Below, piece by piece: positions 3,794 to 42,219 of a stretch of 43,708 bases of DNA. Every line of letters begins with the position of its first letter. Positions within the stretch are counted from its first letter, which is position 1. The notes below the pieces were generated by a model. It did no database searches. It saw nothing but the letters and a program-made list of their open reading frames with translations, and was not told the DNA's origin. Source of the DNA: a virus; IMG/VR virus record IMGVR_UViG_3300029268_000036, positions 1-43,708 of that record; one strand, 5' to 3'. The position numbers and the translations under genes are program-made.

Positions 3794-4312
3794 TTATTTT
3801 CTAAGTTTTTTTGCAGCAGTTTCTTTTGCTACTTCTTTAGCAGCTTCTTCTTTCTTTTTCTTTGCGTCAAAAAGCTTTTTGTTTAGCATTTGGGCAGTTT
3901 TAAATCCTGCTACACCACCAGCAACATTTCCAAGCACACTCAATTGATGCCCACCATTTTTGCCACCTTCAGGATCCCCATCTTTTCTAAACATTTTATA
4001 TATTTTAGGACCAATATGTTTTCCAGCATGTTTTTCAATAGCTTGTCCTGCACGGCCTCCAGCATACATTCCACCAACTATTCCGCCTGCATAAATAGCT
4101 CCTTTAGCAGCTCCTCTTGCAACTTTCTTCCATTTAGATTCCTTATTATTTTCTTCCTCTTCCCTAATATGAGAAACAACATTTGCACCAGTAAGATTCA
4201 GAATTCCTTCAACAATAAGTTTCTTGGCTCTTCGTTTACTTATTGTTCCTTCATTAACTTTTTGTAAAACTCTTTGTGTTAGTAGTGCTTTAATTGCCTC
4301 TAAATTTGTCAT
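3794..4312 (-). CDS. small glycine-zipper protein, tandem paralog A
   Basis: A 172-residue basic protein. Its first about 45 residues form a helical module (MTNLEAIKALLTQRVLQKV...) nearly identical to that of the next gene upstream (4335-4877). A glycine-rich segment follows (about residues 68-95, GGIVGGMYAGGRAGQA), of the kind found in glycine-zipper helices that pack in or against membranes, and then a Lys/Ala/Glu-rich coiled C-terminus. The start has AGAGGAA upstream. I do not recognise the family. Position among tail genes suggests a virion protein, perhaps ejected or membrane-interacting; this is an inference. Confidence 0.8.
   Translation of the reverse strand: MTNLEAIKALLTQRVLQKVNEGTISKRRAKKLIVEGILNLTGANVVSHIREEEENNKESKWKKVARGAAKGAIYAGGIVGGMYAGGRAGQAIEKHAGKHIGPKIYKMFRKDGDPEGGKNGGHQLSVLGNVAGGVAGFKTAQMLNKKLFDAKKKKEEAAKEVAKETAAKKLRK
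4188..4312 (-). repeat. direct repeat copy 1 (5' end of paralog A)
   Basis: About 125 bases covering the start of this gene match the start of the neighbouring gene (4753-4877) with only scattered, mostly synonymous differences. The downstream halves of the two genes differ strongly. This indicates tandem gene duplication with a conserved N-terminal module. Confidence 0.85.
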
Positions 4313-4334: not shown

Positions 4335-4877
4335 TTATTTATTTTTTGTAGTCATTTGTTTATTTATTTGTTGTGTTGCTTCTTCCTTTCTTTTTCTTCT
4401 TTCATCCAACTTTCTGTTTAATGCATGCGCGGCAGCTAATCCAACAGCAGCCCCCTGAACTTTTCCTACTTTAGCTCCAAGAGCTCTTCCGTGTACTCCT
4501 CCTGCAAGTTTTCCGTAATGTTTAGCCTCTTTATTCCAATCAGTATTCTGTGTAACTATTGAAGCAGAGTTACTACCAATACCTTCACCGGCTTTCCCAC
4601 CATATTTCTTTCCAAGTTTTCCGCCAGCATACATTCCACCTAATGTTCCTGCTGCATAAATGGCTCCTTTTCTAGCAACTCTAGCAACTTTCTTCCATTT
4701 AGATGGTTTATTTGATTCTTCATCTTCTCTTATTTTTTCAACAACTTTTGTTCCAGTTAGATTCAAGATTCCTTCAATAATAAGTTTCTTGGCTCTTGGT
4801 TTACTAATTGTTCCTTCATTAACTTTTTGGAGTACTCTTCTTGTTAGTAATGCTTTTATTGCTTCTAAATTTGTCAT
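4335..4877 (-). CDS. small glycine-zipper protein, tandem paralog B
   Basis: A 180-residue basic protein sharing its N-terminal module with the adjacent downstream gene (LLTRRVLQKVNEGTISK...AKKLI.EGILNLTG). It has a longer glycine/alanine-rich centre (about residues 70-155: GTLGGMYAGGKLGKKYGGKAG, then GVHGRALGAKVG and GAAVGLAAAHAL) and a charged C-terminus. The glycine spacing would suit one or two packed helices. A GAGGAAAATAAA leader precedes ATG. Function is unknown. With its paralog and the two related genes at 5593-6794 it forms a four-member family inside the baseplate operon. Confidence 0.8.
   Translation of the reverse strand: MTNLEAIKALLTRRVLQKVNEGTISKPRAKKLIIEGILNLTGTKVVEKIREDEESNKPSKWKKVARVARKGAIYAAGTLGGMYAGGKLGKKYGGKAGEGIGSNSASIVTQNTDWNKEAKHYGKLAGGVHGRALGAKVGKVQGAAVGLAAAHALNRKLDERRKRKEEATQQINKQMTTKNK
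4753..4877 (-). repeat. direct repeat copy 2 (5' end of paralog B)
   Basis: Partner of the repeat at 4188-4312: the same length and register relative to the start codon, with a similar leader sequence upstream. Confidence 0.85.
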
Positions 4878-7310: not shown

Positions 7311-7721
7311 TTATGTTAATCCTCCAACTGTTACAGTTATTTCTCCATATTGATTTCTATAAGCTACATATACTTTTATAATTATTAACTTTTCAGCTAT
7401 ATTTCTCATAATATCAACATTTTCTATAATCGCTCGATTATCAAATTTCATTATTTGATTTTTAACAGTAAACACAATATCCTCTTCTGTTTTACTATCA
7501 AATTGTTCAAATACATACTTATACAAATCACATCCAAATTCTGGATCGTTATCATATGAACCTATAAATGTTTCAAGAATATTATTCCAAGAATTAAGAA
7601 TAACATCAATTCCTGAAATTCTTACAAAATCACCACTAGAAGAGATAACAGGAATGTAATCATAAATTTGGTTGTTAGATCCAACAACATTATTGTTAAA
7701 TCTATCCATTATATTTGGCAT
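7311..7721 (-). CDS. 25: baseplate wedge protein, gp25 / GPW family
   Basis: A 136-residue protein of the usual gp25 length. The middle carries the family pattern: a helix, then D-P-E-F-G (about residues 67-71, the position of R-P-D-F-G in many homologs), then a second helix with paired acidic residues. The C-terminus ends in beta strands (IIIKVYVAYRNQYGEITVTV). In T4, gp25 lies at the core of the wedge and resembles the sheath-binding end of contractile systems. It is preceded by the frameshift extension of the gp26-like gene, whose stop lies 8 bases before the ATG. Its residues match the family pattern rather than any single homolog that I can cite. Confidence 0.8.
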   Translation of the reverse strand: MPNIMDRFNNNVVGSNNQIYDYIPVISSSGDFVRISGIDVILNSWNNILETFIGSYDNDPEFGCDLYKYVFEQFDSKTEEDIVFTVKNQIMKFDNRAIIENVDIMRNIAEKLIIIKVYVAYRNQYGEITVTVGGLT

Positions 7722-7728
7722 TTATTTA

Positions 7729-7956
7729 TTACCTCTTCCTCATGTTGGTTCTGCCCATCTGAGCTTTAGCAGCGTCAAGCATTTTTGCTTTCTGTTCCTC
7801 AAGATCAGCTTTCCATTTAAGAAAATCTTTAAATCTTTTAACAGGCATTGATATTAAAGATTCATATGGTTGTTTTGTTGCTTCCATTGCATTAAATAAT
7901 TCTTCCTGGAGATCTTTTCTATAATTAGAAATCCAATCAGGATGTGTACACCATTC
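7729..7956 (-). CDS. +1 frame extension of the gp26-like gene (75 codons, no own start)
   Basis: An open frame of 75 codons follows on from the gp26-like gene in the +1 frame and ends at TAA (7729-7731). It encodes a charged helical tail: EWCTHPDWISNYRKDL, then EELFNAMEATKQPYES, then a K/E/A-rich end. Upstream the frame is open only back to a TAG about 18 bases before the shift site, with no ATG, GTG or TTG start there. The first ATG lies at codon 24 and has no well-spaced ribosome-binding site. The simplest reading is that the ribosome shifts +1 at TTT TTT CGA and makes a 331-residue fusion (256+75). A separate 52-residue protein from the internal ATG is the alternative. Confidence 0.65.
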   Translation of the reverse strand, partial: EWCTHPDWISNYRKDLQEELFNAMEATKQPYESLISMPVKRFKDFLKWKADLEEQKAKMLDAAKAQMGRTNMRKR

Positions 7957-8725
7957 GAAAAAAGTTTTCCACCAAATCTATGGGAATAACATCAGTATGC
8001 CCACAATAAATACAATGAACTTTTATTTTTAATTCAATTCCATATTTCCCGAATTCTTCAATATACTTTTCAAGAATCAACTTCTTATCTTTTGGAGGAA
8101 TATTTTTAAATGCGTCAATCTTATCTGCTATTGCAATATATTTAATTGGTTCTTTTGCAACATCAACATCTTGTTCAAATCTTTCAATTGCCAAGGTATT
8201 TATAATACTATCGGTCGAAATTGTTGAACTTGTTCCTAGTTCTTTAAATGCAGATTCTTCATCCGCAAGTGTTGGTTGCCTAAGATAAACAGATATTCCT
8301 TTCAGAGTTACAAGATCAACTTTAACTCTTTTTTCCAGAATATCATCATCTGGGTATGGATTTATAGAAAATGCATCTGACATTTGAAATGTTATTGGAA
8401 ACTCTTTTTTGCAGTCTCCACATCTTATGTCGTATTCTCTAACTTCTCCATAAGTTATGTGATACACACCAAATAGAATTGCATCTCTGTCTTTCATGGT
8501 TGTATTTCTCAGAAAAGTTTGATAATCAATTATCTTTTCTGGTTTTAAAACCATAACATCATAAAGACATCTATTGAGATGCTCTGTTACTTTTCCAGGT
8601 GTCATAACACTTGTTTTAAGTTTTTCTTCATCCTTAACCATCATTGTTCTCAGTGTAAACGAATTTTTCGTTTGTGGTGTCACTACTTCGTATTCTGGTA
8701 ACTTTACATCGAATCCTGTAAACAT
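7937..8725 (-). CDS. 26: gp26-like baseplate hub assembly / tail assembly protein
   Basis: A 262-residue protein in the slot between the tail tube and the baseplate genes. It resembles T4-type gp26 proteins in layout: an N-terminal stretch of about 90 helical residues, a zinc-ribbon-like half-site C-G-D-C near residue 104, a Q-P-T-L-A-D-E motif near 150, and a second half-site C-I-Y-C-G near 240. The paired CxxC motifs could bind one zinc. GGGG lies 8 bases before ATG. Near the 3' end the gene carries the candidate +1 shift that would add 75 residues, a layout recalling tail-assembly chaperones made by frameshifting. The gp26 assignment is moderate; the frameshift is separate evidence for a chaperone-like role. 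Confidence 0.6.
   Translation of the reverse strand: MFTGFDVKLPEYEVVTPQTKNSFTLRTMMVKDEEKLKTSVMTPGKVTEHLNRCLYDVMVLKPEKIIDYQTFLRNTTMKDRDAILFGVYHITYGEVREYDIRCGDCKKEFPITFQMSDAFSINPYPDDDILEKRVKVDLVTLKGISVYLRQPTLADEESAFKELGTSSTISTDSIINTLAIERFEQDVDVAKEPIKYIAIADKIDAFKNIPPKDKKLILEKYIEEFGKYGIELKIKVHCIYCGHTDVIPIDLVENFFRMVYTS
7955..7963 (-). other. candidate +1 ribosomal frameshift site
   Basis: In the zero frame the minus strand reads TTT TTT CGA ATG. A P-site tRNA-Phe on TTT could slip one base to TTC while the (typically rare) CGA codon waits, giving GAA TGG in the +1 frame. The zero-frame stop comes only six codons later. The mechanism is inferred from sequence; no stimulating structure was modelled. 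Confidence 0.55.
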
Positions 8726-8768
8726 CTTTGATCCCCTTTCTTTTTAATCTATTTTTATTTTTTAAAAC

Positions 8769-9476
8769 TTAATATGATGAACCGTTTGCATTCACTTCTA
8801 TTGCACTAGTTCTGAACTCTTCTAACTGTGCTGTTGCTTTCTCATAAACCCAATCCTGATGCCAAACATAATCGACATTAAAATCAAGTTCAATTTCAAG
8901 TTTATCACTTGCTGTTATATCACCAGTGAACAGATCCTGAGGATCTTTCAGTGGGAATACGCCATCATAATATGCATAATATTCAATTCCTTTCAAATCT
9001 GGTGTTGACGTAAAATAGAGAAGAGTCCCCGAATATTCATTCTTTGAGTAACTTGCTAAATTAGAATCAAAATCAGCCATACCCGTTATGGAATCTCTCA
9101 TTAATTCAAACCATCCGTGCAAGATTTCAAGAATTGGTGTATTACTAAATTCTAGGAATTGTATTCCAACCTGATTTCCATAATCAACATTTCCTGGTAC
9201 GCCCCATTTTGTTCCACCGAGAGCATTAAACTCAATTCTGTTTAAAGTTCCACCTGGGGGGGTTACCCTCATACAAGAAGCAGCAAGAAGCTGTTTAATC
9301 TGGGTTGGAGAAGATATATCTTCATTTAAAACATATGCCGGCAATTGCGCTGGCAACCTTTCAAACCAAATAAAATGATATCCTGAAACATATGGATCAG
9401 CCCATCCAATATTTCCTCCAAACCTTCTTGTTGCAATATTTCCAAACACATTTGCATACGCATCAGACCTTGGCAT
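8769..9476 (-). CDS. 19: tail tube protein, gp19-like
   Basis: A 235-residue protein with features of contractile-tail tube subunits: an N-terminal arm, a P-P-G-G-T-L-N motif (about residues 73-79), an aromatic tail-polymerisation middle (ILEILHGWFELMRDSI), and a C-terminal D-x-L-E-I-E-L-D-F-N strand like the sheet that lines the tube. The ribosome-binding site is GGAGG, 7 bases before ATG. It is the first gene of the tail run downstream of the acidic 9551-9895 gene and is directly followed by the gp26-like gene, the usual order tube then assembly protein. The identification rests on overall pattern, size and order. Confidence 0.65.
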   Translation of the reverse strand: MPRSDAYANVFGNIATRRFGGNIGWADPYVSGYHFIWFERLPAQLPAYVLNEDISSPTQIKQLLAASCMRVTPPGGTLNRIEFNALGGTKWGVPGNVDYGNQVGIQFLEFSNTPILEILHGWFELMRDSITGMADFDSNLASYSKNEYSGTLLYFTSTPDLKGIEYYAYYDGVFPLKDPQDLFTGDITASDKLEIELDFNVDYVWHQDWVYEKATAQLEEFRTSAIEVNANGSSY

Positions 9477-12933: not shown

Positions 12934-12954
12934 TGAGGGGGATTTACCCCCTCA
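12934..12954 (-). terminator. hairpin at the end of RNA polymerase beta-1
   Basis: A perfect 8-bp GC-rich stem (TGAGGGGG / CCCCCTCA) with a 5-base loop, beginning at the beta-1 stop codon. Only ATTTAAAA follows on the minus strand, so the T-run is weak; it may attenuate or stabilise the mRNA rather than fully terminate. Confidence 0.55.
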
Positions 12955-15900
12955 GATTGTTAATCCTAAAACTTTTAAATAATTTTCTAACAATTTTACA
13001 CTTTCTGGAACAGTATCCTCAACTGGTGAATCTTTAACAAATTCTGATCCAATTGCTTCTCTTATATATCTATTTTTTAAATCTATACAATCAGATTTTG
13101 TTGTTAATACTTCAGCTAAGTTCTCCATACCATCATGCCCAATAAAACACCCAGTTTCCATCTCTCCACATCTTTGTCCGCCATTATTTTTTCTACCTCC
13201 AGGTGGTTGCATTGTCTTTTTACTGTATGACCCAATTCCTCTTGCAGCTATTTTGTTTTCTGCAATATGAACCATACGGAAAAAGTACATACTCCCAACA
13301 CCAATTTTATTAACTATATCAATATCTAAAATTGGTTCATGAACTTTATATTCAAGAGGTGTGTTTGTGTATTCACAAGCCTTTAAAACATTTTCATATG
13401 TTGTAGATTCAAATGGAGGTTGTATTATACTTAAATCATTAACGAATTCTTCATCTATTGAGATAGTTTCCAGATGTTTTCCAACTTGAGATAAATACCA
13501 ATTATCTTTTGTTGAGTCAATTATTTTTATATACTCAAGAAAATACTTTTTAATTGACTTTTGGGATTTCCCCTTTTTAATTCTGTTCAATAATTCTTTC
13601 TTTAGATCTAGAACAGACATTCCAATGTGTAACTCAAATAATTGAGCAACATTCATTCTTGAAATTGTTCCTAATGGGTTTATAACAATATCTGCGTTTC
13701 TACCATCTTCAAGTCTTGGCATTTTTTCATGTGGTACTATTTTTGAAATAACTCCTTTGTTTCCATGTCGGTTTCCAATTTTATCACCAACTTCAATCTT
13801 TCTAGTATATATACCATGAATTGAAATAAATGTTCCCGAGATAACTTCATCTTTATATTTGAATTTTCCTCTTTGTGCAAACTTATCAAGACAATTATCT
13901 CTTATAAAAATACCTGCCTCTTCTTTTGGTAGAAACTTTCTGATTGTTTCCTGAATCTTTCGTTCTCTTTTGAGTTGATTTTCAAATTTCTCTTCCATCC
14001 AATCTTTAAATTGTGTTATCTCTTCATTATATCTATTCGGATAAACATCAACATTTGTAATTAGCACATCTCTTTTTGAAAGAATTGGTGTTCTGTCCTC
14101 AAAGATAACACAATAATTTAGTGGGTCATCTGGTATTTCTTTGACAATTGCATAAGGTTGCCCTTTCAATATCAATTCTCTTTTTCTTTTTCTGTAATAT
14201 ATTTCATCTTTCTTTGGTTCATCATTTTCAATGAAAAGATTTGGTGTTGGAAGTGGTTTGTATATTCCATTTTCTAAACTCAAAAGAATTTTATTTATTG
14301 GAAGAATAAAACTTAAATCAATATGGTGAACAGATGTTAAAATATCTTGTTTAACAAGTCTATCTGATACAACAATTGCGTCTTCATAATTGTACCCATA
14401 ATACGGCATCACTGCTGTAAGAAGATTTTTTCCAATACAAATTCTTCCATTTTTAAGAAAACTGCTTTCAGCAACAATATCACCTTTTTTAACAACATCC
14501 CCTATTTCAACCATAACATTCATTACATTTATATTTTCTTCTGTTGTTTCATACGTTTCAACATTAAATACATCATATGTGTTATCATCATAAACAACTA
14601 TTATAAACATTGGGTCAACATAAACAACTTTACCATCTTTTTTTGCTCTGTGTAAAAATGTTGTGTGATTAGTGTACAATCCTTCACACCCAGATTGAAC
14701 TAGTGGTAGATCAGGGTCTGAAAGGCATATTGCTTGTCTCATTTGTGATGCAGCCATTTGAAGTCTTGTTGGGTCATCATGTTCAACCGATGGAACCATT
14801 GAAACTGCAACTGAAATAGGTGTTTTGTCTAAACGTTCATCAGTAAATCTTTTATTTTCATCCAATTTTTCGTTTGGTAAAATGTGTTGCAAAACACCAC
14901 AATTTTCTCGATCAGAAGTATCAACAGGACAAATTCTTCCAAACATACTTGGATTTATGTCCCTTAAATAAACAGGAATATTTTCTTTAGAAAATCCTCC
15001 AGGCCCAACCAATGAACATCTTGTCAATCTAGATAATTGATTAATAGGATTTATTGAGAAATCATATTCAACAATATTTGAAATTGTACAGTCTGACAAT
15101 ATTGCTGAGGAATTAATATTAAATTTAACTTTCTTTGACCCATATGCAGTAATACATAAGTCAAATATAGCTTTGGCTACTCTTCCATAGATCATATATT
15201 CTATACATCTTAATCTTTTATTTTTAACATCTGTGTCATCAATTGACACATCAATTTGAATCATCTTCAGAATCTCAGAAAGAATATCATCGCTTTCGAA
15301 AAATTTTGCAGTTGGTTTATCAATTTTCAATGCAATATCAAGAGCATAAAGAACAACCTCACCTTTTTTCTGTGTGTCTGAAACATTGTAATAAAGACCT
15401 ACTTCATTTTCCATTTCTTTTGCTGATAGTGTTGAATACATTTCATCAAAGAAAACAAAGTCCGCCATGAGTTTTTCATATTTACTTTTTGGTTCTTCAA
15501 TGATATTGTTCTTAAAATTTAATGTATTGCATATATATTCATAACCATATTTTGCAAATAACAAAGCTGCAATTGGAACTTCAGCCCCTAGAAGAGAAAG
15601 ACACATATAAGGTGCAGTTTTCTTTTCAACAATCATTAAAACTAAAACATTAGTTCTTATTTTGATGTTTTCTCCTCTAGTAACAATAGGAGTATCGAAC
15701 AATTGAAACATTGGAACTTTTTTATTTCCTTTTATAACTATAAAATTATCATCAATAAGTTTTGGAATCATCATACTAAAATCAATTTCACTTTCACCTC
15801 TTTTCAGTTTAATAATTAAATTATTTTTCAATGTTCGATCTAGTTCATGCGAAAAAGAATCTTTTATCTCAAAGTCTGTAAGTTCAAAGCCAGCTTCCTC

Positions 15901-16020
15901 AGCTGGCTTCAAAATTTCCCTTACTGTTGGAAGAATTTCATCATATTCAGACTTTCTAATATTAAAAATATTATTTTCTTCATCAATCTTGAAGTTTGGA
16001 TTAATTATATCTAATTGCAT
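12952..16020 (-). CDS. rpoB-like: RNA polymerase beta subunit, pair 1
   Basis: A 1022-residue single-chain beta subunit. It carries the catalytic-core motif GDKIGNRHGNKGVISKI (about residues 735-755), followed by NPLGTISRMNVAQLFE, and near residue 948 GGQRCGEMETGC, all close to bacterial beta. The N-terminal domain is short: the beta motif P-K-L-I-D-D-N-F-I-V-I-K-G comes at about residue 90. The start is the ATG at 16018-16020, chosen because AGGAGG lies just upstream; the frame is open for 41 more codons into the preceding gene, but without a binding site. It lies 8 bases after beta-prime-1, so both subunits come from one operon. No alpha or sigma gene is visible nearby. Unlike phiKZ-type polymerases, the subunit is not split. 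Confidence 0.93.
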   Translation of the reverse strand: MQLDIINPNFKIDEENNIFNIRKSEYDEILPTVREILKPAEEAGFELTDFEIKDSFSHELDRTLKNNLIIKLKRGESEIDFSMMIPKLIDDNFIVIKGNKKVPMFQLFDTPIVTRGENIKIRTNVLVLMIVEKKTAPYMCLSLLGAEVPIAALLFAKYGYEYICNTLNFKNNIIEEPKSKYEKLMADFVFFDEMYSTLSAKEMENEVGLYYNVSDTQKKGEVVLYALDIALKIDKPTAKFFESDDILSEILKMIQIDVSIDDTDVKNKRLRCIEYMIYGRVAKAIFDLCITAYGSKKVKFNINSSAILSDCTISNIVEYDFSINPINQLSRLTRCSLVGPGGFSKENIPVYLRDINPSMFGRICPVDTSDRENCGVLQHILPNEKLDENKRFTDERLDKTPISVAVSMVPSVEHDDPTRLQMAASQMRQAICLSDPDLPLVQSGCEGLYTNHTTFLHRAKKDGKVVYVDPMFIIVVYDDNTYDVFNVETYETTEENINVMNVMVEIGDVVKKGDIVAESSFLKNGRICIGKNLLTAVMPYYGYNYEDAIVVSDRLVKQDILTSVHHIDLSFILPINKILLSLENGIYKPLPTPNLFIENDEPKKDEIYYRKRKRELILKGQPYAIVKEIPDDPLNYCVIFEDRTPILSKRDVLITNVDVYPNRYNEEITQFKDWMEEKFENQLKRERKIQETIRKFLPKEEAGIFIRDNCLDKFAQRGKFKYKDEVISGTFISIHGIYTRKIEVGDKIGNRHGNKGVISKIVPHEKMPRLEDGRNADIVINPLGTISRMNVAQLFELHIGMSVLDLKKELLNRIKKGKSQKSIKKYFLEYIKIIDSTKDNWYLSQVGKHLETISIDEEFVNDLSIIQPPFESTTYENVLKACEYTNTPLEYKVHEPILDIDIVNKIGVGSMYFFRMVHIAENKIAARGIGSYSKKTMQPPGGRKNNGGQRCGEMETGCFIGHDGMENLAEVLTTKSDCIDLKNRYIREAIGSEFVKDSPVEDTVPESVKLLENYLKVLGLTI

Positions 16021-16028
16021 AAGACCTC

Positions 16029-18755
16029 CTAAATTTTTCTTCCTAACAGAATCGTATCCAAAATACCAGAATAAAATCCACTTTGTAGAACACCTCGTAA
16101 AATGTTCTTTTTTGGATTTGAAAAAGCTAATCCTAAGACCCAACTTTCTTTTTCTGGAACTGTAAGAACACTATATAACATTGGTTGAACTTTATCTCTA
16201 TTTGAATATAATCTCCACTTTCTAGCACCATACCACATTAATTGGGCAACAATAACTTCAAAATGAACATGATGAACAAATCTTGATGATGCATAAACTT
16301 TGTAGAGATTATTTACTAAATCAACATGAGACATATTTTTATCACGGATGTGAAGAAGGGCGGATGCTGTCGATAGATCACCAATTATATCCATCTGTCT
16401 TAAGTTATGAACATCCGATTGATGTCCTTTTGCTTGGGCTACACCAGAAGTGTGGAAAGTTCTTAAAACTAGCTGTGTTCCAATTTCTCCTAAAGCTTGC
16501 GCTGCTAAAATTCCAACATATCTACTATTACAGACTCTCCACAAATCACCATAACATTTATTACAAATTTTTTCGCTCAAACAATAAATTGGTGATCTAA
16601 CTTTTATATGTCTCCCAACAATATCTTTACACACTTCTTTTGTAATCATTTCTTCTTTTTCAGTATCAGGATTAAACCACCATCTTAACAATAATGTTTG
16701 AGCCTTTTTTAAATTCTCAACATAAACAGGTAGATATTCCTTACACCCACAATCATCAAGATCTGCATCTTTTTGTAAATTTGCACATGTAAAAATAAGT
16801 TTTCTTGAAAGATACCCTGATGCTCCTGTATTTATTGCAACATCCAATAATCCTTTTCTACATCCATATGCAGATAAGAAAAATTCTTCATGAGACAATC
16901 CTTCAATAAGACTACTTTTTATTGGTGTTGTTATAATTGCACCTTCAAAATTTGCAATATATCCTCTAGAAAGAATTATTTGTCTAGCCTGATCCCAGCT
17001 TCCTCTTGCACCAGAATCTATTAAGTATGAATATTTAAATTCTTTTCTCAAAATAGCTTCTGTCTCTTTACTAGAAATGGCATCAACTTGATCTTTCATT
17101 GTTTCTTTTGAATATATATTATCTCTTTCTTTTCTAACTTCTGATGATATAATATTTTCTAATGAAAGAGAACAACCAAAAATTGTTGAATATTTAAATC
17201 CTTCATCTTTTATTGAATCTAAAACTTTGATGGTTACAGTTTTATCAAATTTTTCTGTTACATCATTAAGAATTTCTAATAACTCATTTTTTCTAATGAC
17301 CATATTTACTAGAGGATATTCCTGAGGTAAACAATCATTGAATATTTTCATTCCTCTCGTTACTTCAACCCCTTTACACATAACTTTGATGTTTAAGTCT
17401 GGGATCATTTCATTTGTAAGAAAATAAATACCCAAAATAATATCTTGACTAGGAATTTGTGTTAATGTTCGGTTTGTTGCATTAAATAAATTTACAGAGG
17501 GTAAAAATTTCTCATGAACCTCTTTTTGAGATTCTTTTGATAGTGGTAGATAAACTGCCATCTGATCTCCATCAAAATCAGCATTAAATCCAAAACATGA
17601 TAGTGGATGTATTTTTATTGTATTTCCTAGTCCAACTTTAATTTTAAATCCCATTAAACTCAATCTGTGCAATGAAGGTTGTCTGTTTAATAAACATGTC
17701 TCATCCTCAACAATTTCTTCACAGAGTGGTAACAATGAAGGATCTGACATTTCAGAACACTGATCCACATATTCAATTGCATTATTCATAAATTTGAATC
17801 GTTCATGTTCAATTAATTTTTTTGCAATTTGAAGTTTAAATAACTCCAAAACCATTGGGTATGGTAAGCAACATTCATCAAAATTCAATAATGGATCCGG
17901 TGTTATTACAGCTCTTCCAGAAAAATCAATTCTTTTTCCAAGTATGTGTTTTCTTATCAATCCTTCCTTTTTTGAAATTTTTGATAAAATATATTCATAT
18001 ATTGAAAAAATTTCTCTCTGAACTAATTTAAAATAAAAATAAAATAATCTTTTATCCCTTTGAATATCAAATAATGTACTTCTCATTTCTTCTGTTTTTG
18101 TCAAAATTGTTACATATGAACGATTAAACGGATCTGTAATTGATGGTTGATCTGATTTTGTTGATTTTGATGTAGGTCTAAGATCGGGAGGAAGTACAAT
18201 TACATCTTGTATCAAAAGTTTATCAATATTGTCTTTTACAAATTTCCACGATGGGGCATCTTGGAGGTCTTCAGCCATTTGTGTGACGATTTTAAGAATT
18301 GCTTCATCTTTTTCGTATTTCTTAAAAATTGATGAAGAATATTTTTCACTATGGTCGTCACTTACATAATAGGCGTTTGTTTGTGTATTTACATATAATG
18401 CAGATTTATCGCTTTTCAATAATGTATCAATATGTCTTTTTAATTCTTTTCCCCCCAACCAGACAATCAAATCATAAAAAATTGGATTTATAACTTTAAA
18501 AGGAAGATGAATTCTTGCAAATCTTCTTCTTCTTTCAATACTTTTTGCTACATCCACACCACACAATTTACATTTATCAACACCAGATGATGATCCATAA
18601 TACGTTCCGCATTGACAAGTATAGTTTTTTACAGGCCCAAAAATTTGTTCAGAAAGAATTCCTTCTGAATGGAACTTTCTACGAGTTATTACATTTTTTG
18701 ATTTAACTTCAGGTAAATCTTTGCAAAATTCAGTGATGTCTAATAATACTGGCAT
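16029..18755 (-). CDS. rpoC-like: RNA polymerase beta-prime subunit, pair 1
   Basis: A 908-residue beta-prime subunit holding the catalytic NADFDGDQMA motif (about residues 388-397), whose three Asp bind the active-site magnesium. The N-terminal zinc ribbon is intact (C47, C49, C62, C65, in EQIFGPVKNYTCQCG). Other motifs are L-G-K-R-I-D-F-S-G-R-A-V, LLNRQPSLHRL, GARGSWDQARQ, the second zinc site (CGC...CNKCYG) and the trigger-loop region GEIGTQLVLRTFHTSG. All are close to bacterial RpoC, but the protein is about 500 residues shorter than E. coli's, lacking most lineage inserts. AAGGAGG precedes the ATG. It leads the pair-1 operon, and two small genes lie upstream. Confidence 0.95.
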   Translation of the reverse strand: MPVLLDITEFCKDLPEVKSKNVITRRKFHSEGILSEQIFGPVKNYTCQCGTYYGSSSGVDKCKLCGVDVAKSIERRRRFARIHLPFKVINPIFYDLIVWLGGKELKRHIDTLLKSDKSALYVNTQTNAYYVSDDHSEKYSSSIFKKYEKDEAILKIVTQMAEDLQDAPSWKFVKDNIDKLLIQDVIVLPPDLRPTSKSTKSDQPSITDPFNRSYVTILTKTEEMRSTLFDIQRDKRLFYFYFKLVQREIFSIYEYILSKISKKEGLIRKHILGKRIDFSGRAVITPDPLLNFDECCLPYPMVLELFKLQIAKKLIEHERFKFMNNAIEYVDQCSEMSDPSLLPLCEEIVEDETCLLNRQPSLHRLSLMGFKIKVGLGNTIKIHPLSCFGFNADFDGDQMAVYLPLSKESQKEVHEKFLPSVNLFNATNRTLTQIPSQDIILGIYFLTNEMIPDLNIKVMCKGVEVTRGMKIFNDCLPQEYPLVNMVIRKNELLEILNDVTEKFDKTVTIKVLDSIKDEGFKYSTIFGCSLSLENIISSEVRKERDNIYSKETMKDQVDAISSKETEAILRKEFKYSYLIDSGARGSWDQARQIILSRGYIANFEGAIITTPIKSSLIEGLSHEEFFLSAYGCRKGLLDVAINTGASGYLSRKLIFTCANLQKDADLDDCGCKEYLPVYVENLKKAQTLLLRWWFNPDTEKEEMITKEVCKDIVGRHIKVRSPIYCLSEKICNKCYGDLWRVCNSRYVGILAAQALGEIGTQLVLRTFHTSGVAQAKGHQSDVHNLRQMDIIGDLSTASALLHIRDKNMSHVDLVNNLYKVYASSRFVHHVHFEVIVAQLMWYGARKWRLYSNRDKVQPMLYSVLTVPEKESWVLGLAFSNPKKNILRGVLQSGFYSGILDTILLGRKI

Positions 18756-20009: not shown

Positions 20010-23000
20010 TTATAACTTATAAATTTCATCAGCTTCAATTTGATCGATATGTCTATGTGAAATTATATTGATGCTTTGATTTCCAACCATTTTTCTCAAC
20101 ATATCACTAACATAACTAATGTTACGCTCATCAAGAGTATCAAAAATTTCATCCAATAAAATAATATTCATAGACATATTTTGTATATAACTTTGTAAAT
20201 CTCTTAATGTGAAAATTGTAGCTATATCAACTACCCTTGTTTGCCCACCAGATAATTGTTTTCTCATATTTGCTTTTGTAACTGTATCTAAAACGTTAAC
20301 TGATATCTTATCTCTTATATTTCCTCCTTTTGTTTGAGATAACGTATCAAATGAAACTTGATATCTTTCACCGATTTGTTTCAAATAATATGAAATTCTT
20401 TGATTCATAAATGGAATTGCTTCATCAATTAACATTGACGGAATTCCCGACATTGAAAATCCTATTTTCCAAAATTCATAAACTGTAGTTGACTCTTTTA
20501 GTCCATTCTTTTCTTCTTCTAAAACAGAAAATTTTCCATTCAACTTTTCCAGTTTATCAATCATGTCGCTAACTAAAGTATCGTCAAATTCTCTTGTCAT
20601 TGTTTCTTCAAGTTTTCCAGCTAATAAAGAAATTTGAGAAATAAAATTATTCAAATCTTTTTCTTTTTCTTCTTTTTCTTCTTTCTTTGTTTCTACTTCT
20701 TCTATGTCTACCTGCAGTTTCTCTATCTTTAATTTATATATATCCTCATCAGCCGAATACCTGGAAATTATTTCTTTTGTTTTGGCTTCAAGAATTGAAT
20801 CAACTTTATCCAATGCATTTTCAATCTTCAAATCAATTGATTCAATCTCAGCATCTTTTTCTTCTGTTATCAACTTTTTCTTTTTTAAATAATTTTCTTC
20901 TTTTTCAATTTGTTTCTTTTGTGCTTTTTTATACAATATATTATTATCTGTATGACTATCATTTAGCGCCAATAATTCCTCATTTTTAGAAGAAAGTTTT
21001 TCAAGTGTTTCTTCAAGAATTTTTTCAATATTCTTTCGATGCTCTTCACCAACAACTTGTTTACAAGCAAAACATATTACAACTTCTTTTGATAAATCTT
21101 CTTTTAGAGATTCTGATGAATGAATTAAGTTCAAAATATCAGTGCTAATAGCTGTAGTTTTATTATTGAGGTCAGTTAAAATAGCTTCGTATTTTGAACA
21201 TTCCGAAGAAAGTAATTCAACATTTTTAACTCTTTCTTGCAAAAGATTATTTAAAAGATTCATTTTTTCAGACACTATAGATGTTTTTTTGTCTCCTAAA
21301 GTTTTTTCAATTTCACTTTTCTTTAATAGGCATCTATTTGTAAATTCTGTAATTTCTGTGTTTTTATCTTTTACAATTTGATTTTTCTTCGATGTTACAG
21401 CATTCTTCTCTTTTTCTAACTCAACAATATCTTTATCAATTGTTGATGAATATTTTTTTAACTCCTTCTCTAGTTCAGCTTTTTTAATCTTTAAATCTGA
21501 AATAGCTACATTGATTGCTTCAGCATCTTCTTTTTTCTTCTTGTTAAATATTCTTTTCTTTAATTCTAAATCTTCAAGTTTTTCTGTGTATTCAGAAATA
21601 ATTTCTGTTTTTGCTGAAATTTCATTCTCAATACTAGTTAGTCTTGATTGTATATTTTTTAATGTTTCACTAGTAAATGAATAATAATCATCATATTTAT
21701 CAAGTTGTAATACTTTTCTAAAGATATCTTTTTGTTCAGAATCAGTTAGATCGGTAAAGAATGTTGTAACTTTTTGACCATACAACAAAAGGTTTCCAAA
21801 TAGTTTTTGAGGAATAAAAATGGTTTCAATTTCAGGAACAACTTCTCGATGTCCTTTTTTGATGAGTTCATCGTCTTTATATAAATAGACATTGTTTCCA
21901 TGTTTTGTATGATTAGTGTATCTATCAACCCTATACTTTGATCCATTTGTTTCAAATTCAACATAAGTATGACAATTTTTTCCGACTTTATTATTTACAA
22001 CATCTTCACCTTTTAATCCTTCAGGAGTTGTGCCATAAAAAGTATATGGAATACATCCAAAAATTGTTGATTTTCCTTTTCCATTTTCCCCTGTTACTAA
22101 TGAAATTTTTCCATTTTCAAATTGATATGACATTTCATCAAAATAACATTTGTAGTTTTCCATTCCAACTTTTATAAAGTTAATATCGAGTTTGGATGTA
22201 TATGTTTTTGTGACATGTGTTCCAACTGCATTATTTAAAATCCACAAACCTACTCTTAAATATTCGTCTAAAGATGATTCCTGGATTTCAGAGATCTCGA
22301 GATATTTTTTTAATTTTTCCTCTTCAGACATTGATGAATCTATACCTCTATTGGTAATATCTTTTTCTGTTTTATCAATTATGATAAAACTTTCATTAAT
22401 GTCTGAAACAATAACATTATCTTGTTTGCATAACTTAATTTCATTTCCTTCTTTTTTAAGCTTTTCAGCAAGTTTCAAAACTTCTTTTTTATTTTCTTTT
22501 GTTAAATCAAACTGATAAAACTTTTTATACCCTGTTGTAGGAATACTTTCAACATTATCTGTTTCTGTATCAAGAATTATAAATCTTTTTTCATCTTCTC
22601 TTTCGCCCCAATCTTCTTGAATTGGTGACCCAACATAAGTTACATTTCCAACTGTTTGAGGTTTGTGGTAATGTGATAAGAAACAATGTTTATATTTAGA
22701 AACATCTTTAAGACCAATGTCTGAAACAATTGAAATCCCACTATTTAATGCCCCTTCATTTAGTCCTAGATGCCCAATAAGAAAGTCTGCTCCTTTTGGG
22801 GGATTCTTAATTTCTTCATTCATCTTTTCTGGATGCCAGGGAACAAAATAAAGATTGTTAACTAATGTTGCTTCATGAAACATTTTAACATTTGGTTCAT
22901 TATCTAAACATTTCAATGCAGTAACACCATTTCCAGACCTGCTAGACATATCATGATTACCAGAAATAATATAGAAAGTTATATTTGTGTTGTTTCGAAT

Positions 23001-23219
23001 GAAATCAAGGAAAAAACTTTGTGCTAGTACATGAAGTATTGACTTATTGTGAAAAACATCACCCCCTATGATAATATTAGGGATATTGTTTTTTGATGCA
23101 AATTCAACCATATTTTTAAGAGCATTTCCAGTATAAAATAATTTTTCTGGTAATCCTTCTATCATATTTTCTGAATTTGTGGCAGAAAGATGTAGATCAC
23201 CAGTGATTATATATTTCAT
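20010..23219 (-). CDS. 46/47: fused Mre11-Rad50 recombination nuclease (gp47-gp46 type)
   Basis: One 1069-residue chain holds both halves of the SbcCD/gp46-gp47 complex, which resects DNA ends for recombination-dependent replication. Residues 1-220 are the Mre11-type phosphoesterase: GDLHLS (7-12), GGDVFH (52-57), SGNHD (86-90), GHLG, H-Y-H-K and GSP. Residues about 345 onward are the Rad50-type ATPase: Walker A TGENGKGKST (376-385), a long Lys/Glu coiled coil with a zinc-hook CFAC (near 715), signature LSGGQ (near 988), Walker B ILLDE (near 1019) and a C-terminal I-S-H-R. AAGGAG lies 6 bases before ATG. It overlaps no neighbour and follows the UvsW-like helicase directly. In T4 the two halves are separate genes; no frameshift or internal stop is needed here. 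Confidence 0.93.
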   Translation of the reverse strand: MKYIITGDLHLSATNSENMIEGLPEKLFYTGNALKNMVEFASKNNIPNIIIGGDVFHNKSILHVLAQSFFLDFIRNNTNITFYIISGNHDMSSRSGNGVTALKCLDNEPNVKMFHEATLVNNLYFVPWHPEKMNEEIKNPPKGADFLIGHLGLNEGALNSGISIVSDIGLKDVSKYKHCFLSHYHKPQTVGNVTYVGSPIQEDWGEREDEKRFIILDTETDNVESIPTTGYKKFYQFDLTKENKKEVLKLAEKLKKEGNEIKLCKQDNVIVSDINESFIIIDKTEKDITNRGIDSSMSEEEKLKKYLEISEIQESSLDEYLRVGLWILNNAVGTHVTKTYTSKLDINFIKVGMENYKCYFDEMSYQFENGKISLVTGENGKGKSTIFGCIPYTFYGTTPEGLKGEDVVNNKVGKNCHTYVEFETNGSKYRVDRYTNHTKHGNNVYLYKDDELIKKGHREVVPEIETIFIPQKLFGNLLLYGQKVTTFFTDLTDSEQKDIFRKVLQLDKYDDYYSFTSETLKNIQSRLTSIENEISAKTEIISEYTEKLEDLELKKRIFNKKKKEDAEAINVAISDLKIKKAELEKELKKYSSTIDKDIVELEKEKNAVTSKKNQIVKDKNTEITEFTNRCLLKKSEIEKTLGDKKTSIVSEKMNLLNNLLQERVKNVELLSSECSKYEAILTDLNNKTTAISTDILNLIHSSESLKEDLSKEVVICFACKQVVGEEHRKNIEKILEETLEKLSSKNEELLALNDSHTDNNILYKKAQKKQIEKEENYLKKKKLITEEKDAEIESIDLKIENALDKVDSILEAKTKEIISRYSADEDIYKLKIEKLQVDIEEVETKKEEKEEKEKDLNNFISQISLLAGKLEETMTREFDDTLVSDMIDKLEKLNGKFSVLEEEKNGLKESTTVYEFWKIGFSMSGIPSMLIDEAIPFMNQRISYYLKQIGERYQVSFDTLSQTKGGNIRDKISVNVLDTVTKANMRKQLSGGQTRVVDIATIFTLRDLQSYIQNMSMNIILLDEIFDTLDERNISYVSDMLRKMVGNQSINIISHRHIDQIEADEIYKL

Positions 23220-25062: not shown

Positions 25063-25434
25063 TCACCTCGAGTGTGAATAGTATGCTCCTGATGTTTCCC
25101 AAAGTTTTATTTCGTCTAAAATACTTCCTTCGCCATGACAAACACGAATTTCGTAATCTAATTTATCCCAAATCCATTTACCCATTACTTCAGCGGTAGG
25201 ATTTGTAAATATTAAATTTAAATCTATATGATCTAATACATCAATTATATGTTCATTTACAATTTCTTTTAGTTCTGAAAAATCCATAATCATTCCTGTC
25301 TCCTCATCAACTTCACCAGATACAATTACTTCAAGTTTGTAGCTATGCCCATGAGGACTTCTACATTTTCCGTTATGATTTGGTAGATGATGCCCTGCTT
25401 CAAATTCAAACATTCTGCTTATTTTTCTTTTCAT
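25063..25434 (-). CDS. queD: 6-carboxy-tetrahydropterin synthase (QueD)
   Basis: A 123-residue enzyme of the QueD/6-pyruvoyl-tetrahydropterin synthase family, which turns dihydroneopterin triphosphate into 6-carboxy-tetrahydropterin on the way to preQ0. The zinc site and catalytic cysteine are present: AGHHLPNH (H15/H16), then C24-x3-H28-G-H30. Later come LDHIDLN and, near the C-terminus, W-E-T-x-x-A-Y-Y. AAGGAG lies 7 bases before ATG. FolE2 (11682-12545) would supply its substrate. The later enzymes QueE, QueC and a DNA transglycosylase are not in this window; they may lie elsewhere in the genome or be supplied by the host. Confidence 0.9.
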   Translation of the reverse strand: MKRKISRMFEFEAGHHLPNHNGKCRSPHGHSYKLEVIVSGEVDEETGMIMDFSELKEIVNEHIIDVLDHIDLNLIFTNPTAEVMGKWIWDKLDYEIRVCHGEGSILDEIKLWETSGAYYSHSR

Positions 25435-25512: not shown

Positions 25513-26310
25513 TTAGAATCTGTATCCAATAAATGTTTTAACCATCCCACCACTTGAATTGAATGTTGTGTCATTTTCTTTTATCCAATATCCTTCTGAT
25601 GTAGGATCTGAAAAATTAACAAGACACACAGAACCAGTATATCCGACTTCAATACCAAATTCTATTTTTCTAAACAGAAAAATATTTCTTGCTCCTATTT
25701 CATACATGGCAGAGTAACCACTTGTTCCATCATATTTTCCAATATAAGGGAAGTCAAAAGAGGCCGAAGCAATACCAACACCACCTCTTCCTCCTAACTC
25801 CAAGGTATACCAAGGAGTAAATTGGAAAGAATACCCAGCACCAAATATAAAATTGAATGCAGAAACACTAACATCTGTGTCTGAAGTTGAAAATCCTTCA
25901 TCCTCAAAAGTTATATCATCAAATTTATATGTAAAGACCCCAAATCCCATATCCCAGTATAACCCATTTTGTTCCTTAGACTCTTTGAAGGTAAAAAGCA
26001 AATCATAATTTCTACCTTCAGAATTATCTACTGTGTATTTTTCATCCCCTCCTCCTGTATAATCTACTTTGAATTTATTTATGTTTCCGTAGACAGGAGC
26101 ATAACCAAATCTTACTGCTCCATAACTATAATTTGTTTGTGGATAGGTAACAGCCAGTGGTTGAACTGGTGTTTGTGCCGCAGGTGGTAGGGGTTGATCT
26201 GGAATCTGAGGCGAATCAATCGTTGTTGATGTTCCATTTTCTTCTGCAAAAGCAACCTGTGAAAAACAAAACAATAAAACTGACAAAACCAATAGTGTAA
26301 CTTTCCTCAT
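25513..26310 (-). CDS. outer-membrane beta-barrel protein with signal peptide
   Basis: A 265-residue secreted protein. The signal peptide is clear: M-R-K, a hydrophobic core (VTLLVLSVLLFCFSQ) and A-F-A before Glu23. A Pro-rich linker follows (residues about 36-54), then alternating aromatic/polar strands typical of small beta-barrels, ending in Phe (G-Y-R-F), the usual C-terminal signal for Bam-dependent outer-membrane insertion. The start 26308-26310 is preferred because GAGGAG lies 6 bases before it; an ATG two codons upstream sits too close to that site. It has its own promoter-like element and terminator, so it looks like a separately expressed gene. Possible roles are masking a receptor to block superinfection, or another change to the host surface. 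Confidence 0.8.
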   Translation of the reverse strand: MRKVTLLVLSVLLFCFSQVAFAEENGTSTTIDSPQIPDQPLPPAAQTPVQPLAVTYPQTNYSYGAVRFGYAPVYGNINKFKVDYTGGGDEKYTVDNSEGRNYDLLFTFKESKEQNGLYWDMGFGVFTYKFDDITFEDEGFSTSDTDVSVSAFNFIFGAGYSFQFTPWYTLELGGRGGVGIASASFDFPYIGKYDGTSGYSAMYEIGARNIFLFRKIEFGIEVGYTGSVCLVNFSDPTSEGYWIKENDTTFNSSGGMVKTFIGYRF

Positions 26311-26432
26311 AAACATCTCCTCTTTGATTTTTTATTTTTTTGTTACAATTAAAAAAAATTTTGTCTAAAACATTAATGAAAGAGGGCATACTTCAAAAAT
26401 ATTCATATTGAACATATGCCCAAATATCACCT

Positions 26433-34025: not shown

Positions 34026-35008
34026 TTGTTATCTCCTTTTTTATAATCATCTATCAATTCATATAGTTCATTAAGAGTTATATCAGATTTAGATTTTTTA
34101 TCATCATTATATTCCCATGTAGTTAATTGAAGATTAGCTGGGTGCCCGATTATTTCTGGAGAAATATTATTAATAAATCCTTCAAAAATACTATAGATGT
34201 GATCAATTTGAAGTGCCCCATCCATTCCAGATTTTCCACGTTTTGATAATTCCTCTTTTTTAAATTTAATTTTTTTAGCTTTATGTGTAAAATGAAAGAC
34301 TTTTCTTTTATAAATACTATATAAAGATAGTAACTCATCAGGAACTTGTGCTCCATTTTTGATTCTTGTTTGTTTTGCTTTTTCTAATAATTCTTTTGAT
34401 AAAGCAGAATACTCAGCACCATATCTTTCTAACATTGTTTTTTTGCATTTTTCTCTAACTTCTAAGAGATGCATATTGCTTTCAACACCATATCTTTCAA
34501 GTATAGTATTCTTATACTTCTTTTTTATGTCTGGTGATCTCATTGACTCGTCAAAACCATATCTCTCTATATTTGTATCCTTTCTTTTTCTTTTGGTCTC
34601 ATCTGATGTTTTTGGTCTTCCACCATATCTTTCAAAAAAAGTTTTTTCTTTCTTTTCTAAAAATTCTTTTGAATAGCTAGGATTTTCAACACCATATCTT
34701 TCAAGCATTGTATTTTTAATTTGGTTTTTAATACTAGTTAAAGACATTACATGATAAACACCAAATCTTTCATAAGTAGTATTTCTTCTTTTCTCTTTAC
34801 ATCCTTCATGTCTCGAAGGATTATCGACACCATATTTTTTTAAGAAAGTTTCTTTTTGTTTGTTTGTGACCTTATCTGAGGCTATTTTTATACCATAAAA
34901 TTCACTTCTCATCTCTTGCATCGTTTTTCCGTGTGTTTTAATATGAGTATATGTAAGTTGAGAAAATTGATTTTTGCAATATGGGCATACTACATATTCG
35001 GTCATCAT
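34022..35008 (-). CDS. HNH homing endonuclease with C2H2 finger and E-R-Y-G repeats
   Basis: A 328-residue free-standing endonuclease. The N-terminus has a C2H2 finger (C8, C11, H22, H26), then six to seven repeats of a KxYG/ERYGV unit separated by Lys/Arg-rich spacers (about residues 45-210), which probably bind DNA. The C-terminal HNH-like nuclease has I-D-H-I-Y-S then G-H-P-A-N-L-Q and a closing N-x-x-K. The gene starts inside the end of the RNA polymerase beta-2 gene (4-base overlap) and ends overlapping the 33441 gene. This placement, next to a conserved gene, is typical of selfish homing genes. Confidence 0.85.
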   Translation of the reverse strand: MMTEYVVCPYCKNQFSQLTYTHIKTHGKTMQEMRSEFYGIKIASDKVTNKQKETFLKKYGVDNPSRHEGCKEKRRNTTYERFGVYHVMSLTSIKNQIKNTMLERYGVENPSYSKEFLEKKEKTFFERYGGRPKTSDETKRKRKDTNIERYGFDESMRSPDIKKKYKNTILERYGVESNMHLLEVREKCKKTMLERYGAEYSALSKELLEKAKQTRIKNGAQVPDELLSLYSIYKRKVFHFTHKAKKIKFKKEELSKRGKSGMDGALQIDHIYSIFEGFINNISPEIIGHPANLQLTTWEYNDDKKSKSDITLNELYELIDDYKKGDNK

Positions 35009-38000
35009 TTCAGTTTACTCTCTCTAGAATCAAGAAGAAGTCCTATGAGATAGGCTCCCATAAAATCTCTAGCCATTGATTCTGTTGACACTCTAAAAGT
35101 TGCGGCTCCAGATGTTATTATTTCTGAAATCATTTCGTCTCTGCTCCTTTGATCGTCAGATAAAGGTCCCATTAACTCTGATAATAGATGTGGTGCGTTG
35201 TAGCCCATTATTGCGTACGAATCTTGTTCCCCGAGTCTCTGACCACCTTCTCTGCTTTTTCCTTGTGTAGGTTGTCTTGTTGCAGTTGTTGGGCCTGTTG
35301 ATCTAACATGAGCTTTTAAATCACCCATATGCTCAAGTTTAGTAATATATGAATATCCAACTGGAACTTTACTTTTTGTATTTATTCCAAGATCTGGTAA
35401 AAATAAATTATAACCATCAGACAATCCTAACGCTTTCATTGCCATATGAATTTGTTTATGCGTTGGAGATTTGAATGGTGGAACTATTATTGGTACAAAA
35501 CCATTTTTCTTAATTGAGTTAACCATTGCTAAAAAGTTTTGTTCCGATAATCCTGCTAATGTAGCTACAGTTTTTTTACTGTATTCAAAATTCTTTGTAT
35601 TATCGAGAAGTGGTAAAACTGTTCTAAATACTGCCATAATTTGAGATTTATTTCTAGCTACACTAATTCTAATAGCCATTGCTTTAGCAATCAATCCACA
35701 ATAAAGTTCAAAAATTTGACCCATATTCATTCTACCAATAACACCCAAAGGATTCAATATTATATCAAGATTTTCGTTCCAAGGTGTTTTTGGCATTTTA
35801 TCGTCATCTTCAATTAAACAGACGACCCCCTTATTTCCATATCTTCCTGTTAATTTGTCACCCAATCCTATTTTTAATTCTTGTTGTATTTTGAATTTTA
35901 TAGTAATTCCTTTTAAAGTCTTTCTTCTATCACTAAATTTTTCATTTGCAGCCATTCCATATCTAGATCTAGTTTTTACAGATAATTCTTTTAATAATGG
36001 ATATCTATCAATTGGAATATTTGAAAATACTTCAATATCAACAATTGTCCCGCCAGGACTTTTTTTAATCATTTCTTGGCCATAAACGACTACACTATCA
36101 TCATCTTCACTATATCCCAAAAGTTCCTCAAGCTCACCTATCGTTTTTCTAATGAGTGGATTTCCAGCTTCAATGTACTCACCAATTTTTGCAATGTAAA
36201 GAACCCTATCCTTGTCAGATACGTCAATTTCTTCGATTACCCCATGTAGCGACGTCAATTTTTCACTCTGTGCTAACTTGTTACTTATAACAATGCCATC
36301 TTCAAAGTTATACCCTTTATATGGCATATATGCAGTTAACAGTGTTTTTCCTAATGAAATTGATCCATCTTTTATACAACTTCCTTCTGCCAACAATGTC
36401 CCTTGTTTAACATATAATCCTTTTTTAACTAGAGGAACAAATACACTGAGAGTGTCTCTTCCAAATCCAGATTTTAGATGGATTGGCGATATATCTATTG
36501 CATCACTTTTTCCACTTCTATTTTTTATTTTTATATAATCCTCAGTTACTTCAACAATCATACAATCATATGGTGCCTTTTTAACAAAATTTTCAGACAA
36601 TGAGGTTGTAAGAATTGATTCATACCCAGTCATTACAATTGGTGGTTCTGGATTCTTAAGTGGAAGCATCTGTTTAATTTGGCTATCTGCCATTATTATC
36701 CTACCACCATCATTGCTTCCAACAAAAGGAATAAGTGCAGATGAGGTTGATAGTATTCCTGAACCTTCTTTATCATCTATATCTTTCTTTCCAAATAATC
36801 CTCTAGCATTGGTGATTTCAGCACCCATTGCAAGTTGTTGTGTTACACCTATATTTTCACCTTCAGGAGTATCGACAGGATCTATATTTCCAAAATATGT
36901 GTCATGAACATTTCTGGCTTTTCCTGTTAATGCTGCTGGTGTTGCAACACCACCAATATGTTTTCCAACTGGTGAGATTCTGGTCATTGTAGCCATTTCT
37001 TCAATTGGATTTGCATACTCCATATTAGTAACAATTTCAGTTTTCAAAAATTCGCTTAGTAATTGTGTTCTATTTATGTCGAATTTTGCACTTTTATCCC
37101 CAGACATAACTTTCATTCTATAAGTTGTGTATGCAGATTTCAATTGGTCTCTTATCAACATGCTTATAACTTCAGACCCACGAATTCTTTGATTTGATAA
37201 ATCATTTCTCTCTATAACTTTTCCACTAACAACATGATAAGTCATATAATACATTATTTCTTCAAGTTCAAAAGGAAGTCCTTGATTTATAAGAACCTGT
37301 TTTGATGCAGGGTCAACCAAGTATTTTATATTATCAGAAATCAAATAGGTTGAACTAATGGATCCTGTTATTTCCTGAAGTAGATCAGCAAAATAATCTT
37401 TTGTTCCAAATACTGCTTTTGGCTTATATTTATAAATATTTTCAACAATAACAGCTTCTATAAGTTGAACCTTTAAATCGTTATTCACATTGTCAAAAAT
37501 CACATACTGGTTTGTATCAATACGAATATAAGGTCTTGTTTCAGCTTTTCCGGGAGCCTCAGAAACAAGTGTATATTTCATTCCATACTTTTCCATTACT
37601 CTATCCCAACCAAATGCATACGCAAGAACAATCAATAATGGAAGACTTTTAAAGGATCCCATATATATTTGAAGATATTTTCTTGTTTTTGTTATTTTAC
37701 TATATATATGAAATTTTGAATATGATGAATGAAATAGTGAATCATATCTTTTTGGAAATGTTATTGGGCACAAAACAATCTGATTAATAAGACATTTTGT
37801 TTCTCCATAAATTCTGAAGGTTCCTGTTTTAAAATTTATTCTCGGTATATCAATTAGAACTTCTTGTTCAGATCCATCATTTTTTTTAAGTGTGACCACA
37901 ACAGTATTTACATCAGATTGAGACAATTCTCCTTTTCTCTGTGGGGATTCAACAATTTCAAAAGATTTTATTTTCAAGGGAACTTCTTGATTTTCAAAAA

Positions 38001-42100: not shown

Positions 42101-42219
42101 ATAACTTCAGAGAATAATCCTTCATCATGAAATTTTTCACCTTTGGTTAGTATCATTGTTGAGGTCACTTGTTTATATAAACTACAGAAGTGTGATACAT
42201 CGAGAAGTTTAAGGAGCAT
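39187..42219 (-). CDS. rpoC-like: RNA polymerase beta-prime subunit, pair 2
   Basis: A 1010-residue beta-prime subunit with the catalytic N-A-D-F-D-G-D-Q-M-A motif near residue 370, L-M-G-K-R-V-D-F-S-A-R-A-V, G-A-S-K-G-W-D-Q, CHTCYGEL and G-E-R-G-T-Q-L-I-M-R-A-F-H-T-G-G. It is more diverged than beta-prime-1. The N-terminal zinc ribbon is missing (F-G-K-E-K-T-K-E-R where CxCG stands), and the usual L-L-N-R-x-P-x-L-H-R becomes L-A-K-R-D-P-V-L-I-P. Some 120 residues between the trigger region and the C-terminal motif form a beta-rich insert (about 790-900). The start overlaps the upstream HNH stop (TAATG) with a GAGG site upstream. Confidence 0.94.
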   Translation of the reverse strand: MLLKLLDVSHFCSLYKQVTSTMILTKGEKFHDEGLFSEVIFGKEKTKERKTTFGYINLNVKVIHPAALSLLLKVSRNIKKFLSTEISFSLDSAGRLIEDPNGVTGINAFIDLFPKINFKASEVGTKVIELLKKAYKDEVLFIDKIPVIPPAFREMTRDPKTGEIRVEEINNYYTQILKRSLGIKAIATAKGPLKDLLTYGIQNSVMDLDGFIRTKLSKKFGLVREQLMGKRVDFSARAVIMNGPTLEVNEIGIPFTIAVGLFEPFIIHILLYTDKFDKATLETEILSFIDQPLSVDSIKKVLNSIKSKDVAPAELYKIIFEATKMAMEGRLVLAKRDPVLIPESVRAFKPILINGSIVRVNNLQTGGFNADFDGDQMAIFHPLSSKAQEDCKKLLRDETGTNMNSISYELSKESTLGTYLLTKDYKKTTSTKIINKEDLKKISDPAQIVKFGNRTTTFGKAVFNSLLPENYGFINIPVTKKVVNNIISNIFKTRGSDIARKFAFDVQTIGYAYATYVGSSITIDMIDIPQSIMKLKEKLDKVDPTTAADIIKHMKNLMIEHLKDTGLYDLCESGASKGWDQPTQILIAKGVIADVEGNLLKPIKGSFSEGLTPKEYFAASLGARKGIVDRVINTADTGYTSRQLAYLLNGVELDWLKKDCETTRTIQIKLVDDLIKKLEGRYVVENRKVVPFDKTKYKSGDVINLRTPIYCTSKKICHTCYGELLKRHRTPYVGLVAAQIIGERGTQLIMRAFHTGGAVKIVTRDILKELFDNDPNSNKDHIHQTFKQEGSMITTLKGGTLTLSFEQYTLNDDLIVNEEEDNIWVKSLLGVYETTDGIKINVILDCEVNTLVPREFIFEKKNKIVVQYEEGEEIFEIPVEKQEVKEIVLYMRRLIGGGEIFKDTTHLLMKLYRLYADLSDMDLVHMEIVVSQCLRDKERPILPARLGKDPDNPVMFNIKKTVFNSGFLQGLAFENVGEAISSGLTSKYELEPSVLEKILTGTLVEDEEKK

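Follow-up and report, generated by a model that had tools for sequence, protein, structure and literature searches.

Tail assembly chaperones of T4-like phages are described as a short gene accompanied by a longer fused copy (Vladimirov, Gautam and Davidson 2022, Virology 566:9-15, as cited in PMC10885494 and PMC12846349), and the citing literature likewise treats poly-T −1 signals as known for the chaperone genes of T4-like phages. T4 itself is named as the exception to G-T frameshifting in a 2016 review (PMC5009743). The short and long genes of the 2022 work presumably correspond to gp26 and gp51, as suggested by the match of gp51 to PF12322. The T4 duplication, with gp26 as the short form and gp51 as the long form, was considered as an unreported observation and was dropped, since the T4-like chaperones had been identified in 2022, as far as the citing text indicates; because both these chaperones and the poly-T −1 signals are already in the literature, neither is claimed as new. 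A shift from UUU_CGN to U_UUC_GNN is the +1 motif of plant amalgaviruses and has also been noted in Zygosaccharomyces bailii virus Z and influenza A (PMC6356274), where the influenza A shift has no evident stimulatory signal and occurs at a very low level (PMC5009743). No report of the UUU_CGN +1 motif in a phage was found in the literature searched, which is not proof of its absence. In the gp26-like phage gene analyzed here, a programmed +1 ribosomal frameshift at UUU_CGN very probably produces a longer predicted protein.

The window, i.e., the whole stretch of DNA analyzed, is a 43,708-base IMG/VR virus record obtained as a metagenomic contig, and represents a fragment of the genome of an uncultured jumbo myophage. 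Two RNA-polymerase beta/beta' pairs are located on the minus strand at 12952-18755 and 35005-42219, and the pair at 12952-18755 shows approximately 50% identity to uncultured relatives. A T4-like baseplate region is also present. The only cultured phages matched by the gp26-like protein are jumbo phages of the AR9/PBS1-like and S6-like types, LPJP1 and phiR1-37, with an identity of about 20-34% over part of the gene. Several other features of the minus strand were observed: a 267-aa ORF (25513-26316) with a signal-peptide-like start and the look of an outer-membrane barrel, which is odd for a phage and has no Pfam match; a 6-pyruvoyl tetrahydropterin synthase family protein (25063-25434; PF01242, E=9.6e-34); a single 1069-aa ORF (20010-23219) comprising a metallophosphatase and a Rad50/SbcC-like ATPase, which resembles T4 gp47 and gp46 fused; and tandem paralogues (3794-4312 and 4335-4877) with nearly identical N-termini, one of which was searched and gave no family match.

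The gp26-like gene occupies 7937-8725 on the minus strand and matches PF12322 above the family cut-off (E=5.6e-16) and phrog_150, baseplate hub (E=4e-18). A Shine-Dalgarno-like AAAGGGG, read from the sequence, precedes its ATG at 8733-8739. The zero frame, running from 8725 to 7937, has 262 codons and corresponds to the short (G-type) form; its 3' end reads ...GAA AAC TTT TTT CGA ATG GTG TAC ACA TCC TGA. The putative shift site, TTT TTT CGA, lies at 7963-7955, with the P-site codon at 7960-7958 and the A-site codon at 7957-7955, and the zero-frame stop follows six codons later. The +1 frame is open from 7956 for 75 codons, down to the stop at 7731-7729 (7729-7956 in total), and its translation is EWCTHPDWISNYRKDLQEELFNAMEATKQPYESLISMPVKRFKDFLKWKADLEEQKAKMLDAAKAQMGRTNMRKR. 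The fusion computed from the minus strand, corresponding to a long (GT-type) form, has 331 residues. The gene length, stop position, open frame and fusion length given in the preliminary description were thus all reproduced. In the 28 genes of the window (12,730 codons), an in-frame UUU_CGN was expected 2.2 times and occurs once, at the gp26 site. CGN codons are scarce in the window (57 of 12,730), which fits a slow A site.

A scan of IMG/VR with gp26 as a single protein gave no matches, and relatives were instead sought with the RNA-polymerase beta gene as bait. Five relatives carrying gp26 at 47-48% identity were obtained in this way, all with the same split codon, and a profile constructed from them was used to collect IMG/VR loci, where the best 80 of 172 matches were taken. 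The comparison set consists of 65 distinct sequences, including the window, with a median protein identity of 61%. These sequences form 59, 32 and 8 clusters at 90%, 70% and 60% identity, respectively, which indicates that the conservation does not arise from one genome counted repeatedly; because the sequences share ancestry, the conservation percentages are only descriptive.

Among these best 80 of 172 loci, a homologous +1-frame extension is found in 79, i.e., in all those with a readable extension; the 80th locus ends at a contig edge, yet the shift site is present. A lone shifted open frame might be due to chance, but the identical architecture recurs in 79 of the 80. In the 65 distinct sequences from the same loci, the second Phe codon is TTT without exception and is always followed by CGN (CGT 27, CGC 22, CGA 11 and CGG 5), while the first Phe codon is TTT in 63 and TTC in two. 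The zero-frame stop is located 5-9 codons past Phe-Phe (six in 55 sequences), and the complete extensions have 63-78 residues. As background, TTT accounts for 77% of the Phe codons and CGN for 21% of the Arg codons in these same gp26 genes, where CG does not follow any of the 501 remaining in-frame TTT codons. The check that had been proposed for the candidate, namely whether relatives conserve the site and both frames, thereby comes out in its favor in the 65 distinct sequences from the best 80 of 172 loci. A bacterial and archaeal genome collection yielded only two matching loci, one on a contig of a Lokiarchaeota MAG and one on a contig of a Thermoplasmatales MAG, and each has TTT TTT CGT and a +1 extension. 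These contigs are probably misbinned phage, and the phages may have an archaeal host.

The coding status of the extension was examined over its codons 8-22, which in most sequences lie past the zero-frame stop, in 55 sequences ungapped before the internal Met. The +1 frame contains no stop, whereas the remaining two contain 51 and 106; the mean BLOSUM62 score is 2.86 in the +1 frame versus 0.78 and 1.53 in the others; and the variability of the +1-only stretch is highest at third positions. As judged from these substitution patterns, the +1-only stretch evolves as protein.

Such a stretch could also be a separate small gene, namely the 52-aa ORF starting from the ATG at 7885-7887 (minus strand) or from an upstream start, expressed by its own translation or by reinitiation past the gp26 stop. 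A Met at the same index is common, being present in 45 of the 65 distinct sequences from the best 80 of 172 loci. However, the start is not conserved, as Ile or Lys replaces the internal Met in some relatives, and the frame is conserved as protein also upstream of this position. A Shine-Dalgarno-like site precedes gp26 in 63 of the 65 sequences (best 80 of 172 loci), whereas none precedes the internal Met in any of the 45 sequences having it; an ATG kept together with a binding site for the second frame, which the preliminary description had named as evidence against a frameshift, was therefore looked for in the relatives and did not appear, and its remark that the second frame lacks a good start agrees with this result. 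Moreover, in 55 of the 65 sequences (best 80 of 172 loci), the stretch from the upstream +1 stop to the site offers no possible start, and a separate gene leaves the invariant TTT CGN unexplained. A separate gene is accordingly considered very improbable. It is a still more distant prospect that the split is peculiar to this contig, whether as a mistake in sequencing or assembly or through decay of the gene: although the window is a metagenomic contig, the same codon split is found in 65 distinct sequences on many contigs (best 80 of 172 loci), and none of these relatives is fused in a single frame.

The same extension frame can be reached by events other than a +1 ribosomal shift. In a −2 ribosomal shift on the six-T run, tRNA-Phe would re-pair perfectly in 63 of the 65 sequences (best 80 of 172 loci), giving NFFFEW and a product of 332 residues, and in transcriptional slippage the polymerase would drop one U, or add two, on the T6 run, which most sequences possess. 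The sequences that discriminate are those of two divergent relatives, L080 and L096, which carry TTC TTT CGC: the T6 run is broken and TTT C is retained. The +1 shift requires TTT followed by C, whereas the −2 shift requires the T run, so that these two relatives argue for +1 ribosomal slippage over both alternatives. The −2 shift, whose re-pairing is broken in them and which leaves the invariance of CG after the T run unexplained, is regarded as very improbable; transcriptional slippage, for which the run is missing in the same relatives and CG past it need not be invariant, is regarded as highly improbable. A −1-frame extension, as expected of an X_XXY_YYZ programmed −1 site, was found in none of the best 80 of 172 loci, one of which (L064) is cut by the contig end. 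The pattern also differs from a +1 shift of the prfB type, since the A-site codon is CGN rather than a stop and a Shine-Dalgarno-like site within 20 nt upstream occurs in 0 of 65.

In the proposed +1 shift, most ribosomes would stay in the zero frame of gp26 and terminate after 262 codons. In a minority, peptidyl-tRNA-Phe would occupy the P-site UUU while the rare Arg codon CGN waits in the A site; the tRNA-Phe would then slip one base forward, from UUU to UUC, and GNN would be read next. The outcome would be a 262-residue short form and a 331-residue fusion. The preliminary description had placed the slip from TTT to TTC at a slow CGA codon, and its first part is consistent with TTT CGN in 65 of 65 sequences (best 80 of 172 loci), whereas the A-site codon can be any CGN and not CGA specifically. 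Stimulators appear to be lacking: downstream RNA structure is not evident, with a mean folding z of −0.34 for 60 nt versus −0.14 for the control, and the shift-site region has no match in Rfam.

The genomic position is that of a tail gene. The upstream neighbor (8769-9476, minus strand) is a tail tube, whose AlphaFold model matches the tail tubes of phiKZ, phi-kp24 and T4 (best E=4.7e-10) and whose relatives match phrog_45, tail tube; the position just after the tail tube, claimed in the preliminary description, is consistent with this predicted fold. The downstream neighbor (7311-7721, minus strand) is the gp25 baseplate wedge (PF04965, E=7.9e-9). Among the best 80 of 172 loci, a tube homologue lies upstream of gp26 in 58 of the 65 with room, and gp25 follows gp26 in all 78 with room.

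The gene, which had been described as gp26-like and tail-assembly-chaperone-like, belongs to the T4 gp26/gp51 family (PF12322). T4 gp51, with a match of E=3.9e-52 in this family, consists of PF12322 plus a C-terminal extension, and T4 gp26 is PF12322 without the extension, with its stop three codons past its own Phe-Phe. In the window family, a short form and a longer, C-terminally extended form, as expected of a chaperone pair, are present at the sequence level. No tape measure gene was identified, which counts against the reading as a chaperone frameshift. The extension of the window alone has no significant match in Pfam or PHROGs, and the extension profile gives E=0.0087 against the cyanophage extension and 0.039 against the gp51 tail, with reversed controls of 0.075 and 0.59. 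The extensions share a similar pattern, an MP motif followed by a charged stretch. Given such weak profile similarity, equating the extensions depends on where they lie, on the N-terminal domain that the proteins have in common and on this pattern. In a model of the fusion of one relative (L079; mean pLDDT 79), a mixed alpha/beta domain is followed by a low-confidence joint and by two helices; the model matched nothing significant in a fold search of the PDB and matched T4-like baseplate-hub proteins in a viral library. Taken together, the frameshift pair is probably a G/GT tail assembly chaperone of the kind represented by T4 gp26/gp51.

In the cyanophage-type gp26, T TTT TTC is followed by one codon and the stop in all 77 distinct loci (L118-L197, L113), and the −1 frame stays open as an extension; a profile of this extension matches the tail of gp51 with E=4.5e-8. 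The S-RIM8 annotation assigns part of the −1 extension to a short hub assembly catalyst gene of its own. The cyanophage type resembles the window family in belonging to the same protein family and in having an extension joined by frameshift at Phe-Phe codons. However, the cyanophage shift is −1 at U_UUU_UUC with the stop one codon on and a moderately structured downstream region (mean z −1.79), whereas that of the window family is +1 with the stop mostly six codons on and no evident structure. The gp26 homologues of AR9, BpSp, S6, phiR1-37 and SA1 (L002, L003, L004, L005 and L007) have an open −1 extension from CTT TTT, although these are few sequences; the extension is not annotated as a fusion, and PBS1 also has one at CTT TTT. 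Between S6 and SA1, the differences in the −1 extension are mostly at third positions, with 16 synonymous and 6 non-synonymous codons.

Compared with the known systems, what is new here is the +1 direction and the UUU_CGN site within the known frameshift scheme of tail assembly chaperones. In lambda gpG/gpGT the chaperone frameshift is −1, whereas that of the window family is +1. Listeria phage PSA and HSTV-2 share a +1 shift in a structural or tail gene of a phage or archaeal virus (PMC5009743); in PSA, however, the capsid and tail-shaft genes shift at a CCC codon. A +1 site that does not involve a stop codon is hard to spot. The window family offers a conserved series of natural cases with a simple motif and no evident stimulator, and annotators gain a rule to recover an unannotated tail protein. 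The jumbo-phage group also joins the scheme to which T4 has long been the exception. T4-like chaperones are alike in the PF12322 family and in having a short form plus a C-terminally extended form; the two forms are separate genes in T4, whereas the window phage has one gene and a +1 shift, and the direction of the shift varies among homologues. Influenza A PA-X, the amalgaviruses and virus Z share the UUU_CGN motif, and influenza A likewise lacks an evident stimulator; however, these are eukaryotic RNA viruses with unrelated genes, which indicates convergence and not kinship. On balance, it seems fairly likely that UUU_CGN is a cross-domain +1 motif, where the stimulator-free site of influenza A and amalgaviruses has become fixed, for bacterial or archaeal hosts, in a large clade of uncultured jumbo phages, and that one chaperone family produces its two isoforms in three ways: by a +1 shift at UUU_CGN, by a −1 shift at U_UUU_UUC or CUU UUU, and by two genes in T4.
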